NCBI GenBank assembly: GCA_035606695.1
Contig: DATNEW010000008.1
Coordinates: forward strand, 62,001-126,000
Reading direction: 5' to 3'
DNA length: 64,000 bases
From: Gemmatimonadaceae bacterium
GTDB lineage: Bacteria; Gemmatimonadota; Gemmatimonadetes; Gemmatimonadales; Gemmatimonadaceae
The notes beneath the pieces are model-generated. The model was not told the DNA's origin and did not search any database. It saw only the letters and a program-made list of their open reading frames with translations. A program made the position numbers and the translations under genes. This document shows positions 38,328-43,688 of the stretch, piece after piece (the stretch's first letter is position 1; each line of letters opens with the position of its first letter).

Positions 38328-38391
38328 GGGCGTATGGGCGTATGGGCGTATGGGCGTATGGGCGTCGGGGCGTCGGGGCGTCGGGGCGGCG
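38328..38391. repeat. Tandem octamer array (GGGCGTAT x4, GGGCGTCG x3, GGGCGGCG)
   Basis: Eight octamers follow one another between the beta-lactamase stop and the sortase-substrate start. Regular GGG(G) runs spaced by four or five bases could form G-quadruplexes on the plus strand. Same family as arrays at 42384 and 42510. Confidence 0.9.
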
Positions 38392-38393
38392 GC

Positions 38394-39335
38394 TTACGGC
38401 TTTTTGGGCCAGGCGGATACTATCGCGGCGCCGAGCTTTCCGAGCGTCAGGTGCGCCTCGTTGTCCGGCAAGTAGCGCGTGTCCGCATTCTGCTTCGTGA
38501 GGCCGCACGCGACGACGCGCGATTGCAGGCGGAACAGGGCGCATTCGGTGCGGACCGAATCAGTCGAGCCCGTCTTGTGCGGCGCGCTCACACCCTCGAC
38601 GTACCGCTGCATCTGTTCGCCGTCGGCGTTATTGGCGAGCAGATCGAGCATCGCCGAATCCGCGGCCGGACTGACCGCGCGTCCCTGCGCGAGCAATTCA
38701 AAGAGGTGCGCCATCTCGTTCGGCGTCGTGACGCCGAGGCCGTACTTCACCGAGCTGTCCATCGCGACGCTGGTGAATCGCTGGAACGTCTTGGAATGCA
38801 CCTTCGTGTGCGGAAGGCCAAGCGATTCCATCTTCGTCCAGACGCGGCGAATGGCGACCTTGTCGAGAATGAGATTCGTTGCCGTGTTGTCGCTCAAGAC
38901 GATCATCAGCGCGGCGGCGTCGTGCACGCTCAGACTCATGCCCGAATGCATGAACTGCAACACGCCGCTTCCGGGCACTTGATCGATCTTCAGGACCGTG
39001 ATCGGATCGTCGAGCGACAGCTCGTGCTTCTCGGCGAGATCGTACAGCGTGACGAGAATTGGAACCTTGATCAGACTCGCGGTGGGAAACGTTTCATCGC
39101 CGCGGAGCGACAGGCGTTCGCCGGTATCGAGGTTGAGCACCGAGTAGCCAAGCACGCCATGGTGTGCGCTGGCGATGCCGTCGAGCGTGCGATGCAACGC
39201 GGCGGTGTCGGCATGGGTGAATTGGGCTGAGACGGTGGATGAGAAGACGGCAAGTAACGCGGCTGTCATCCCGAGCGAGCGAAGCGGGTCGAGGGATGAC
39301 GACCGGGTTCGCGTTTCGGGCCCTTTGACATTCAT
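38394..39335 (-). CDS. Class A beta-lactamase-like serine hydrolase
   Basis: A 313-residue secreted enzyme (291 if started at ATG 39269). The three class A motifs are present: SLIK (SxxK) in FPTASLIKVPIL, SDN in IVLSDNTATN, and KTG in APHKTGSTD. I use ATG 39335, which makes TGATG with the upstream stop and supplies the basic region before the hydrophobic core (MTAALLAVFSSTVSAQ). That basic region is encoded by a palindromic repeat (39265-39300). It could act on beta-lactams or on peptidoglycan fragments; sequence alone does not decide. Confidence 0.88.
   Translation of the reverse strand: MNVKGPETRTRSSSLDPLRSLGMTAALLAVFSSTVSAQFTHADTAALHRTLDGIASAHHGVLGYSVLNLDTGERLSLRGDETFPTASLIKVPILVTLYDLAEKHELSLDDPITVLKIDQVPGSGVLQFMHSGMSLSVHDAAALMIVLSDNTATNLILDKVAIRRVWTKMESLGLPHTKVHSKTFQRFTSVAMDSSVKYGLGVTTPNEMAHLFELLAQGRAVSPAADSAMLDLLANNADGEQMQRYVEGVSAPHKTGSTDSVRTECALFRLQSRVVACGLTKQNADTRYLPDNEAHLTLGKLGAAIVSAWPKKP
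39265..39300. repeat. Dispersed palindromic repeat, short copy inside a gene
   Basis: GTCATCCCGAGC at one end and GAGGGATGAC at the other bound a 36-base element in the 5' part of the beta-lactamase gene. Read on the minus strand it encodes SSLDPLRSLGMT and contains one of the two possible start codons in GGGATGAC. It is a shorter relative of copies at 22603 and 29204. Confidence 0.75.
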
Positions 39336-40525
39336 CACGTCACCACCGCCCGCTTGTCCTCGTACTTCTTCCACGTCTCCTCCTTCAAGATCTCATCGAT
39401 CATCTCCACCGCGCGCTCCAGCTCATCATCGCTCGTGTAGAAGTGCGGCGCCACACGAATGCCCGCGCCAGGCCGATAGTCGACGATGACGTCGCTTGCC
39501 AGCAGCGCCTGCGCGACGCCGTACGCGTGCGGTACGTCGAACGCCACGGTGCCGCCGCGCCGCGCGGGATCGCGCGGCGCGGTCACGCGATAGCCGCGCG
39601 CATCCGCGAGCTCGATGAGGCGCGACGTCTGCCGCACACTCTTCTCGCGCACGCGCTCGATCCCTGCCCGCCGCACGATGCGCGGCCCTTCGATCGCGGC
39701 GAACAATGCCGGAATGGGCGGCGTGCCATTGAGCCAACGCCACGCGTGATCGGCATACTGCATCTCGGCATCGAACGCGAACGGCTTCGCGTGCGCCTGC
39801 CATCCGGTGAACGCCGGCGACAACCCACTCGTCGTCTCTGGCGATGCGTAGAGGAACGCGCCGCCTGGTCCGCCGCACAACCATTTCAGCACGCCGCCGC
39901 TCAGGAAATCGGCGCCGATCGCCTTGACGTCGACCGGAATCACGCCGACGGAATGAAACGCGTCGAGCGACACGAGCGCGCCAACGTCATGCGCGCGGCG
40001 GCAGATCGCCGCGGCGTCCATGATGAAGGCCGAGCGAAACAGCACGTGCGAGATCGCGACGAGGCGCGTGCGTTCATCGATCGCGTCGATGACCCGCTGC
40101 GTGTCGATGCCGACGCCGTCGTCGCTCGGGACGACCACGATGCGCGCACCGAGCCGTCGTGCCAAGCCATCGTAGACGTAGCGCACCGACGGGAAATCGA
40201 GCTCGGTCATCACGATCGTGTCGCGGCCATTGCCGTAGTCGAGCGACGACAGCACCGACGCCTGCGCGATGGTGACGTTGGGAATCATCGCCACTTCGCC
40301 GTTGCCGGCGCCGATCAGCGGCGCGATCTCGTCGCCCACCGACACGGGCATTTCCCACCAGCCTTTCGCCCACGCGCGCACACCCAGCTCGGCCCATTGA
40401 TCCACGTACTCGGCGAGTCGCTCGGGAACTGCACGCGGCATGGCGCCGAGCGAGTTCGAGACGAGATACGTCGTACGTTCGAGAATTGGAAACTCGGCGC
40501 GAAACTGCAGCAGCGGATCGGTCAC
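39335..40525 (-). CDS. Kynureninase-like PLP-dependent class V aminotransferase
   Basis: A 396-residue PLP enzyme. The fold-type I landmarks are NSLGAMP, DFPSVRYVYDGLA, SLDAFHSVGVIPVDV (Asp binds PLP N1) and the Schiff-base lysine in GGVLKWLCGGPGG. The start block FPILERTTYLVSNSLGA resembles kynureninase. GTG 40525 overlaps the permease stop as GTGA, so amino-acid uptake and breakdown are probably linked. The true substrate is not proven. Confidence 0.9.
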   Translation of the reverse strand: MTDPLLQFRAEFPILERTTYLVSNSLGAMPRAVPERLAEYVDQWAELGVRAWAKGWWEMPVSVGDEIAPLIGAGNGEVAMIPNVTIAQASVLSSLDYGNGRDTIVMTELDFPSVRYVYDGLARRLGARIVVVPSDDGVGIDTQRVIDAIDERTRLVAISHVLFRSAFIMDAAAICRRAHDVGALVSLDAFHSVGVIPVDVKAIGADFLSGGVLKWLCGGPGGAFLYASPETTSGLSPAFTGWQAHAKPFAFDAEMQYADHAWRWLNGTPPIPALFAAIEGPRIVRRAGIERVREKSVRQTSRLIELADARGYRVTAPRDPARRGGTVAFDVPHAYGVAQALLASDVIVDYRPGAGIRVAPHFYTSDDELERAVEMIDEILKEETWKKYEDKRAVVT

Positions 40526-41835
40526 GCGGCGCCCTCGGCGTGTACCGCGCGGCGGTTCGCCATGCTCGCGGCGAACAACACCACCGCGACGCCGACGATG
40601 ACGAGCAGCGCTTTCCATTCGTCGGCCGAGAGCGTGGAGAGAATCCACGCGATGACGATGAAGGCGAGCACCGGTATGATGGCCGAAAAGGGAACGCGGA
40701 ACGGCACGCCGTCCGAGTGTACATCCATGCGACGCAGCTTCAACACCGCGATGCAGCAGGCCGCGTAGACGAGGAGAATCGATCCGTTGGCGATGATCGC
40801 GAGACGCTCGAAGCTGCCGCTGACCGCGAGGATGATGACGATCACGGTCTGCAACATGATCGCAATGTGCGGCGTGTGAAAGCGCGCATGCACGGCGCCG
40901 ATCGGCGCGGGGAGAAATCCATCGCGCGCGAATGCGTAAAGCGTGCGCGGGACCGCGAGCGTCATCCCGCTGATGTAGCCGAACATCGACACCGCCATGC
41001 CGACGAGTATGAGCGTGCGTCCCCAGGCGCCGAACGCGACCGCCGCGGCTTCGGCGAGCGGTGTCTTTTGTCCAACGAGCGCGGGGCCAAGAATGCCCTG
41101 CGTGACGATCTGGACGACGAGATAAAAAATTGTCACCGCCGCCATGGCGATGAAGATCGCGCGCGGTACCGTGCGCGCGGGATCATGCACTTCGCCGCCC
41201 GGCACGAGCGCGGTCTCGACACCGAGGAAGGCGAAGATCAGCACCGCCGAGGCGCGGGCGACGCTGCCTGCGGCCGGAGCGCTCGCGACGACGAGATTCT
41301 CGTGCTTCACGGCGCCGATGCCGGCGACGATCAACAGCAGCAGCGGCAGCAGCTTCGCGACCGTCATGGTTGCATTGAAGCGATTCGCGCCGCGCACGCC
41401 GGCGACGTTGAGCGCCGCGAGCGCGACGAGAATGATCGTGATGGCGATTCCGCGCACATTCGCGAGCGACGGAATGAGCGCCACCAGCGCGTCGGCGAAG
41501 AAGGACGACACCGCGGCCGTCGCCGCCGTGATGCCGGCCCACATCAGCACGCCGGTGACGAAGCCGATGAGCGGTCCGAACGCGACTTCGACATAGGCAT
41601 ACACGCCGCCGGTGAGTGAGACGCGGCTACCCGCCTCGGCGAAGCACAGCACGATGAGGCCCATGGCGACGGCGCAGACGACATAGGCGATCGGAGCCGC
41701 GGCGCCGAGCGCGCCGGCGGCGGCGGCCGGCAAGCGGAAGATGCCTCCGCCGATGGTGATGTTGACGATGCTGGCTGCCAATCCCCACACGCCGACGGCG
41801 CGGAGCAGCGAGGCTTCGTTGTTTTGTCGGGGCAC
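40522..41835 (-). CDS. APC-family amino acid permease
   Basis: A 437-residue inner-membrane transporter with about twelve helices. The first helix carries the APC substrate motif (NITIGGGIFRLPAAAAG), and FAFLGVETALVPGGEVHDPA is the typical helix-6/7 region with the glutamate. GTG 41835 (MPRQNNEASLLRAVG) is used; a 36-residue extension has no family support. Coupled to the kynureninase-like gene. Confidence 0.92.
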   Translation of the reverse strand: MPRQNNEASLLRAVGVWGLAASIVNITIGGGIFRLPAAAAGALGAAAPIAYVVCAVAMGLIVLCFAEAGSRVSLTGGVYAYVEVAFGPLIGFVTGVLMWAGITAATAAVSSFFADALVALIPSLANVRGIAITIILVALAALNVAGVRGANRFNATMTVAKLLPLLLLIVAGIGAVKHENLVVASAPAAGSVARASAVLIFAFLGVETALVPGGEVHDPARTVPRAIFIAMAAVTIFYLVVQIVTQGILGPALVGQKTPLAEAAAVAFGAWGRTLILVGMAVSMFGYISGMTLAVPRTLYAFARDGFLPAPIGAVHARFHTPHIAIMLQTVIVIILAVSGSFERLAIIANGSILLVYAACCIAVLKLRRMDVHSDGVPFRVPFSAIIPVLAFIVIAWILSTLSADEWKALLVIVGVAVVLFAASMANRRAVHAEGAA

Positions 41836-41963: not shown

Positions 41964-42383
41964 ATGCGTCGCTCGATTCATCTCGCGGTGGTGTGCCTGA
42001 TCGCCGCCGCCGTCACGCCGTTACGCGCGCAATCCGGCGCGTTCACTCTCATGTCCGATACGTCGTCCGCGCGCGCTGATTCCGTGAACGTGGCACTGGC
42101 GCCGCGGGTGCCACAGGTTGTGACGCCGCGCACAGCTGAGGATCGCGTCGCGGGAGGGTCGCTCACCGGAATGCGCGCGGGCGTGCATCGGCAGGAAACC
42201 GTGCGGCCGCTCATCCCGAACGCGGCGGCGACCAATCCGCACCTCGGCCAATCGCGTGCGATGATGGTGGTTGGCGCGGCGGCGCTGATCGCGGGCGCGA
42301 TCATCGGCGGCGATCCCGGCACGATCATCATGGTCGGGGGAGCGGTGATCGGGCTATACGGGTTGTATCAGTATCTGCAATGA
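41964..42383 (+). CDS. Small secreted protein with glycine-rich hydrophobic tail
   Basis: A 139-residue protein with a signal peptide (MRRSIHLAVVCLIAAAVTPLRAQ). The middle is polar and probably disordered. The C-terminus (AMMVVGAAALIAGAIIGGDPG, then IIMVGGAVIGLYGLYQY) has two short glycine-rich hydrophobic stretches able to form a membrane hairpin. GGAGA ribosome-binding site precedes the ATG. An octamer array begins at the base after its stop. Confidence 0.75.
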   Translation: MRRSIHLAVVCLIAAAVTPLRAQSGAFTLMSDTSSARADSVNVALAPRVPQVVTPRTAEDRVAGGSLTGMRAGVHRQETVRPLIPNAAATNPHLGQSRAMMVVGAAALIAGAIIGGDPGTIIMVGGAVIGLYGLYQYLQ

Positions 42384-42439
42384 GGGGCGTCGGGGCGTCG
42401 GGGCGTCGGGGCGTCGGGGCGTCGGGGCGTCGGGGCGTA
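42384..42439. repeat. Tandem octamer array (GGGGCGTC x6, GGGGCGTA)
   Basis: Seven octamers begin directly after the stop of the small secreted protein gene. Four-G runs every eight bases satisfy the canonical G-quadruplex pattern on the plus strand. With the opposite-oriented array at 42510 it can also pair as an imperfect inverted repeat. Confidence 0.92.
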
Positions 42440-42509
42440 TGAACGACGTTTTAGATGGCTCGTGACGGTTGCTTCCTCACGAGTGTAAATGTCTGTAGTA
42501 GGTCATCAT

Positions 42510-42581
42510 ACGCCCATACGCCCATACGCCCATACGCCCATACGCCCATTCGCCCATTCGCCCATTCGCCCATTCGCCCAG
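42510..42581. repeat. Tandem octamer array (ACGCCCAT x5, TCGCCCAT x3, TCGCCCAG) abutting the patatin gene
   Basis: Nine octamers end three bases before the patatin ATG at 42585. The patatin frame is open through the whole array back to an ATG at 42489, which would add 32 residues in HTPIRPYA/HSPIRPFA repeats. Because the unit is eight bases, any change in number would shift that longer frame. Confidence 0.92.
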
Positions 42582-42584
42582 CCT

Positions 42585-43688
42585 ATGACCCGTACTTCGT
42601 CCTCTCACAAACCGCGTCGCGTCGCCCTCGTCCTTGGCGGGGGCGGCATGAAGGGCTTCGCGCACATTGGCGTCATGCATGCGATGGAAGAGCGCGGGAT
42701 CGTTCCGTCGCTCTACGCCGGCACGAGCATCGGTGCGATGCTCGCCGCGGCGCGCGTGGGCGGCATGCCGATCGACGAGCTGAACAAGCGCGCTGCATCG
42801 CTTCGGCGGCGCGATCTCTTTCGGTTGAATCATTTCGGCATGCTGCTCGAGCGCATGCGCTCTCCGTCGATCTACCTCGAGGACCCGCTGCGCGACTTGA
42901 CGCGTGCGGTCGTACCGGCGGGCACGTTCAATGATCTGCCACAGCCGCTGCTGGTGAACACGGTGGATCTCGAGCGCGGCGCGCCGATCATCTGGGGCGC
43001 GCCCGGGCTGCGCGATGTGAACGTGCAGGACGCGGTGTACGCGTCGTGCGCGCTGCCAGGCTACTTCCCGCCCGGCTACGTCGGCGAGCGGCTGTGCGTG
43101 GACGGCGGCGTCGTGGATAATCTGCCGGTGGGTATGGCCGCGCTGAATGCGGATTTGATCATCGCGGTGGACGTGGGCAGCACCGACTTGCGTCCGATTC
43201 ACGACGGCCTCTCGCTCGGCTTCGCGAACATCTACATGCGCGCGGCGACGACGATGATGCACGCGCTGCAGCAGTTTCCGCTCACGCACTGGAACGGTCC
43301 GCCGATGGTGCTCATTCGTCCGCGCTGCGGCGAGGACTGGTTGAGCTTCACGAACATCGCCGCGACGATCGAAGAAGGACATCGCGCGGCGCTCAAGGCG
43401 TTCGAGGACATCGACGCGTTCTACGATCAGCCGGGCGGTGTGTATCCGCGACGGCGGTTCGAGCTCGAGGTGGATCGCGAGAAGTGTGTCGGCTGCGGAC
43501 TCTGCGTATCGCTCGCGCCGAACCTCATGGGATTGGACGCGCAGGGGAAGGCGTATCCGCGCACGAAGACGGTCGATTGGTCTCCGGCCGACGGCGACTT
43601 CGTGGCGTACTGTCCGACGAACGCGATCATCGCGAGGAAGACGGAGCGAATCGTGCCGCTCAAGGCGGGCGAGCGCGGGGCGGCGTAA
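42585..43688 (+). CDS. Patatin-like phospholipase fused to a 4Fe-4S ferredoxin domain
   Basis: A 367-residue protein. Residues 12-275 are a patatin lipase: oxyanion loop GGGGMKG, nucleophile S48 in GTSIG, catalytic D173 in DGG. Residues 293-367 form a mono-cluster ferredoxin: C301, C304, C307 in CVGCGLC, and C343 in AYCPTNAI. It should hydrolyse acyl esters, with an iron-sulfur cluster as a redox sensor or structural element. The minimal start is ATG 42585; an ATG at 42489 is in frame through the octamer array. No ribosome-binding site precedes 42585. Confidence 0.9.
   Translation: MTRTSSSHKPRRVALVLGGGGMKGFAHIGVMHAMEERGIVPSLYAGTSIGAMLAAARVGGMPIDELNKRAASLRRRDLFRLNHFGMLLERMRSPSIYLEDPLRDLTRAVVPAGTFNDLPQPLLVNTVDLERGAPIIWGAPGLRDVNVQDAVYASCALPGYFPPGYVGERLCVDGGVVDNLPVGMAALNADLIIAVDVGSTDLRPIHDGLSLGFANIYMRAATTMMHALQQFPLTHWNGPPMVLIRPRCGEDWLSFTNIAATIEEGHRAALKAFEDIDAFYDQPGGVYPRRRFELEVDREKCVGCGLCVSLAPNLMGLDAQGKAYPRTKTVDWSPADGDFVAYCPTNAIIARKTERIVPLKAGERGAA

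Follow-up and report, generated by a model that had tools for sequence, protein, structure and literature searches.

A patatin-like protein fused to a mono-cluster ferredoxin in Gemmatimonadaceae, with a second fusion group in Planctomycetota: a possible iron- or redox-sensing lipid hydrolase

The window, meaning the whole 64,000-nucleotide stretch of Gemmatimonadaceae DNA that was analysed, contains a gene in which a patatin-like phospholipase domain is followed by a ferredoxin domain (Table 1). The sequence-only reading had placed both domains in one 367-residue chain, and this was confirmed: the frame is open throughout, both domains score above the Pfam gathering score, and the residues it had named were at the positions given (GGGGMKG at 18-24, S48 in GTSIG, D173 in DGG, and C301, C304, C307 and C343). 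A longer alternative frame from 42489 adds 32 residues, mostly encoded by an 8-bp tandem repeat, and orthologues from the same genus likewise start with MTR immediately ahead of the patatin domain, which supports the start at 42585. A frame artefact or an assembly fusion was ruled out by 122 distinct fused sequences, from all loci fetched, across many assemblies. The gene is flanked by that for a small putative membrane protein (41964-42383, plus strand) and, on the minus strand, by a RES-Xre toxin-antitoxin pair. Three intergenic 8-bp tandem repeats, perfect or near-perfect, were also found: GGGGCGTC in seven copies at 42384-42438 and CATACGCC in nine copies at 42507-42580, both just upstream of the fusion gene, and GGGCGTAT/G in seven copies at 38328-38388 (38.3 kb of the window).

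Table 1. Fusion gene and its parts (window coordinates)
Feature	Position	Strand	Basis
Patatin-ferredoxin fusion gene	42585..43688	+	Open frame of 367 aa, Pfam, alignment, AlphaFold
Full patatin fold, aa 11-279, PlpD-like	42615..43421	+	VIA-align Z 31.6 to 5fya_A
Patatin core, aa 15-185	42627..43139	+	Pfam PF01734
Short linker, aa 280-290, conserved Pro288	43422..43454	+	Alignment and fold boundaries
Mono-cluster ferredoxin domain, aa 291-353; CxxCxxC at C301/C304/C307, CP at C343	43455..43643	+	Pfam, conservation, model fold
C-terminal tail, aa 354-367	43644..43685	+	Model pLDDT under 50 from residue 356

The N-terminal part matched the Pfam Patatin profile (PF01734, residues 15-185) with an E-value of 2.6e-34 and 119.5 bits against a gathering score of 27.7. 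A glycine-rich oxyanion loop lies at residues 18-24, the nucleophile S48 is encoded at 42726-42728 and the catalytic D173 at 43101-43103. The profile score, the Ser-Asp dyad (GxSxG, DGG/A), the glycine-rich loop and the fold in the AlphaFold model all place this domain in the patatin family. The model, made with a 30-row alignment, had a pLDDT of 89.3 overall (about 87-95 in the ferredoxin part) and a pTM of 0.87. Its residues 11-279 superposed on PlpD with Z 31.6 and rmsd 2.4. The patatin fold, glycine-rich loop, GxSxG and DGG are common to the PlpD/RssA-type patatin-like phospholipases (PF01734; 5fya, 5fqu), which, unlike the fusion, have no ferredoxin domain; full-length PlpD bears a secretion barrel. 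The cut-off of the RssA equivalog NF007623 was not reached (79.8 bits vs 272). The CBASS phospholipases CapV and CapE share the patatin effector fold (Z 22-26) and are signal-regulated, but they are controlled by cyclic nucleotides and carry no ferredoxin, and the fusion scored far under the NCBIfam CBASS_lipase cut-off (equivalog NF041079, 62.6 bits vs 200).

Patatins take part in phage defence and virulence as well as in lipid turnover, and acyl-hydrolase chemistry is established for the family. By homology, with all catalytic elements in place, the acyl-hydrolase part of the function is a well supported prediction. It is highly improbable that the patatin domain instead acts as a transferase under cluster control, passing acyl groups from one lipid or thioester to another: a weak fold likeness to FabD-type acyltransferases (Z 7.2) and the acyl-CoA/acetyl-CoA use suggested by the fadI/fadJ and aconitase neighbours described below would suit this, but the closest structures are patatin lipases (Z 20-31) and the patatin motifs are complete. 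We also observed a Cys at position 171, two residues ahead of D173, that was invariant in 82/82 close Gemmatimonadaceae fusions; this position is Tyr, Leu or Phe in unfused relatives and mostly non-Cys in more distant fusions. Two tandem patatin genes are located elsewhere in the window's genome (another contig; L195 3551-5696), the first of them without a DGG match in a pattern scan.

In the C-terminal part, the single-cluster ferredoxin profiles of Pfam matched residues 295-348, all above gathering score: Fer4_15 (E 1.6e-07, 32.3 bits vs 22.4), Fer4 (2.6e-05) and Fer4_13 (2.9e-05, 25.1 bits vs 24.5). Model residues 291-353 superposed on Pyrococcus furiosus ferredoxin (2z8q) with Z 11.3, and the rmsd to Thermotoga maritima ferredoxin (1VJW) was 1.0 over 56 residues. 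Together with 1siz, these [4Fe-4S] ferredoxins (PF13370/PF13459) share the whole fold and the CxxCxxC...CP pattern with our domain over 56-63 residues at rmsd 1.0-1.7. The sequence-only reading had required the four Cys to form one site in a model, and this held by superposition, the Cys-bearing domain lying on true [4Fe-4S] ferredoxins. The profile score, the four Cys ligands with the distal CP and the predicted fold are those of a mono-cluster [4Fe-4S] ferredoxin (Fer4_13/Fer4_15), so that sequence and predicted fold assign the protein to the patatin and the ferredoxin families alike. The Pyrococcus and Thermotoga proteins are free-standing carriers, whereas here the ferredoxin is fused to a hydrolase and near-neutral, with median net charges of -1, +2 and -2. 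Soluble electron-carrier ferredoxins are acidic, and the near-neutral charge makes the fused domain unlike them. The CYP51-ferredoxin fusion (6mcw) likewise has a ferredoxin of this type C-terminal to an enzyme, but its partner domain is an electron-requiring P450, whereas a patatin hydrolase needs no electrons.

A patatin match was found in 56/59 related genomes, mostly at full length. In a 150-genome sample of the phylum, the full-length fusion was present in three families of a single order, namely that of the window and two sister families, the latter usually carrying both fused and unfused forms; the other orders had only a patatin ending near residue 272. In the alignment, S48, D173, C301, C304, C307 and C343 were invariant in 110/110 distinct Gemmatimonadota fusions (82 close and 28 distant), which argues that patatin and ferredoxin are under joint selection; all key residues were also kept in the 30 aligned orthologues. 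The 26 unfused relatives aligned kept S48 and D173 and had none of the ferredoxin Cys, and no free-standing ferredoxin was located next to unfused relatives in 22 loci. One protein inside the fusion clade (L122) kept the patatin and lost the ferredoxin, with no downstream CxxCxxC in any frame. Mobile or viral spread was rejected: viral contigs gave just two weak partial matches, and no plasmid place covered 80% of the protein. In one sister-family genome (L215) the fusion is split over two frames, as a frameshift or a pseudogene would explain.

When species genomes of bacteria and archaea were scanned and domains assigned by Pfam, a second patatin-ferredoxin group was found in Planctomycetota, with a full-length match in 8/199 sampled genomes. 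Fusions were absent from 745 sampled genomes of Myxococcota (195), Pseudomonadota (349) and Chloroflexota (201) at E 1e-45, a threshold that divergent fusions could escape. The catalytic S and D of patatin were kept in all twelve Planctomycetota fusions. Their ferredoxin differs: the pattern, CxxCxxCxxxC and then CxxDxxCxxxCP, is of the two-cluster type, and one site bears an Asp that is invariant (12/12). Asp-type sites, as in P. furiosus Fd and Desulfovibrio africanus FdIII, hold labile, iron-exchangeable clusters. The Planctomycetota fusion was also modelled, from five sequences, but with a pLDDT of only 46.5 this poor model was left out of comparisons. In a maximum-likelihood tree built from the patatin region only, the Planctomycetota and Gemmatimonadota fusions formed two well supported clades with unfused patatins between them. 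Forcing them into a single clade cost 30 log-likelihood units, with a borderline AU p of 0.047, and a PR..V.V.VD-like linker pattern is common to both groups. From the tree we favour, at this borderline level, two separate fusion events; the alternative is a single ancient fusion with later losses. That such a fusion recurs speaks for a genuine coupling of patatin and ferredoxin.

The sequence-only reading knew of no characterised example and would have yielded to a common, already described architecture. The first half applies, as the fusion is common within a single bacterial order, is also present in another phylum and therefore is no singleton; of the second half we found no evidence. Full-text searches of 5.39 million open-access papers gave no description of a patatin-ferredoxin protein, no patatin known to carry a metal cluster was found either, and no matched PDB chain had both domains. 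What is new is the combination, each family being already known.

The surroundings of the gene were compared among loci. In 34 of the 37 Gemmatimonadaceae loci with enough flank, the fusion is followed by a same-strand aconitase gene (Pfam), often with a gap of 15-210 bp; no aconitase gene adjoins the fusion in 27 sister-family loci. The window's own genome has two aconitase genes: one on the same strand 22 kb downstream, truncated by the contig end, and one elsewhere. In Planctomycetota, fadI (thiolase) and fadJ (enoyl-CoA hydratase/3-hydroxyacyl-CoA dehydrogenase) lie divergently beside the fusion in 7/12 loci, one of these seven having fadJ alone. Both contexts may indicate fatty acid and acetyl-CoA use, which is suggestive only, because the neighbours differ between the groups and the aconitase gene is 22 kb off in the window's genome.

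Considering these results, we propose, with a probability of about 0.4, that the protein is a cytosolic acyl-hydrolase feeding beta-oxidation and the TCA cycle, and that its [4Fe-4S] domain senses the iron, oxygen or redox state and stabilises the enzyme. The Ser48-Asp173 dyad would free fatty acids, presumably from membrane or storage lipids, and these would enter beta-oxidation and the TCA cycle; no signal peptide was seen by eye, and the enzyme is probably cytosolic. The C-terminal ferredoxin domain, probably carrying its [4Fe-4S] cluster, would pack on the enzyme. With iron present and the cluster intact the enzyme would be competent, and when the cluster is lost or oxidised, through low iron or an oxidant, activity or stability could be altered. 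Gating by iron or oxygen had been proposed in the sequence-only reading, and we infer the same as the favoured reading. Sensing or stabilising is preferred because hydrolysis involves no electron transfer, the ferredoxin has almost no net charge, P450s are missing in most hosts and the Planctomycetota version has a labile Asp-type site. Bacillus subtilis PurF, with its oxygen-labile cluster, offers an analogy for a sensing and stabilising role. Some results count against sensing: the complete ferredoxin signature and the two-cluster ligands in Planctomycetota would equally suit electron transfer, and the patatin was kept in L122 without the ferredoxin.

A tethered electron carrier, in which the ferredoxin exchanges electrons with a partner oxidoreductase (desaturase, acyl-CoA dehydrogenase or P450) acting on the acyl chain that patatin supplies, seems unlikely; electron transfer to a lipid product had been the other suggestion of the sequence-only reading. 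P450s are the usual partners of the mono-cluster ferredoxin type, and the full ligand set, a fold near that of electron-transfer ferredoxins including the P450 partners 4id8 and 8amq, and the P450-ferredoxin fusion 6mcw among the sequence matches are all consistent with a carrier, as are the ligands for two clusters and the adjoining beta-oxidation genes in Planctomycetota. However, no redox enzyme was conserved beside the Gemmatimonadota gene in the loci examined, and the domain is not acidic. P450 genes were detected in just 16/59 relatives; the five same-genus genomes sampled all carry the fusion but lack a P450 gene. Electron donation to a P450 as a general function is unsupported by these P450 counts.

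A structural or docking role, in which the rigid ferredoxin fold would stabilise the protein or bind protein or membrane, with neither sensing nor electron transfer, is likewise rather improbable. The cluster of endonuclease III was long held to be structural, and confident domain packing in the AlphaFold model, the near-neutral charge and the unfused relatives that keep their catalytic residues without a ferredoxin would all agree with such a role. Against it, the four Cys are invariant in 110/110 fusions over wide divergence, although some members might be expected to have replaced a cluster of purely structural value, and the fusion recurs in two phyla whose ferredoxins differ in cluster content.

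Returning to the iron- or redox-sensing hydrolase, we might speculate, with some doubt, that a built-in [4Fe-4S] switch on a patatin hydrolase evolved twice, as a mono-cluster form in Gemmatimonadota and a labile two-cluster form in Planctomycetota, tying lipid turnover to iron and oxygen status. A conserved lipase-ferredoxin beside aconitase or beta-oxidation genes would give a direct route to test bacterial coupling of lipid breakdown to iron and redox state, and offers a simple one-protein system for that question.

Several other genes were observed near the fusion. The RES-domain toxin and Xre/MbcA/ParS antitoxin (PF08808, PF09722; 43746-44928, minus strand) also adjoin the fusion in two same-genus relatives (L004 and L006); since the pair was seen only in these two among the loci checked, it is probably unrelated to the fusion. 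A kynureninase-like class V aminotransferase gene (39335-40648, minus strand) with a KYNU_C domain scored 160.7 bits against the curated kynureninase cut-off of 246.4; it adjoins an amino acid permease gene and is conserved beside the fusion in many Gemmatimonadaceae. The sister-family neighbour is a different class V enzyme with a best match of SufS type, far below cut-off. A link to Fe-S assembly through these aminotransferases is not claimed, since the enzyme is kynureninase-like in the window's family and the SufS-type match in the sister families is sub-cut-off. M20 (DapE-like) and DapD-like genes are located near the fusion in several Planctomycetota loci (e.g. L164 3415-5314), and an M20 gene is also found downstream of the fusion in many Gemmatimonadaceae.
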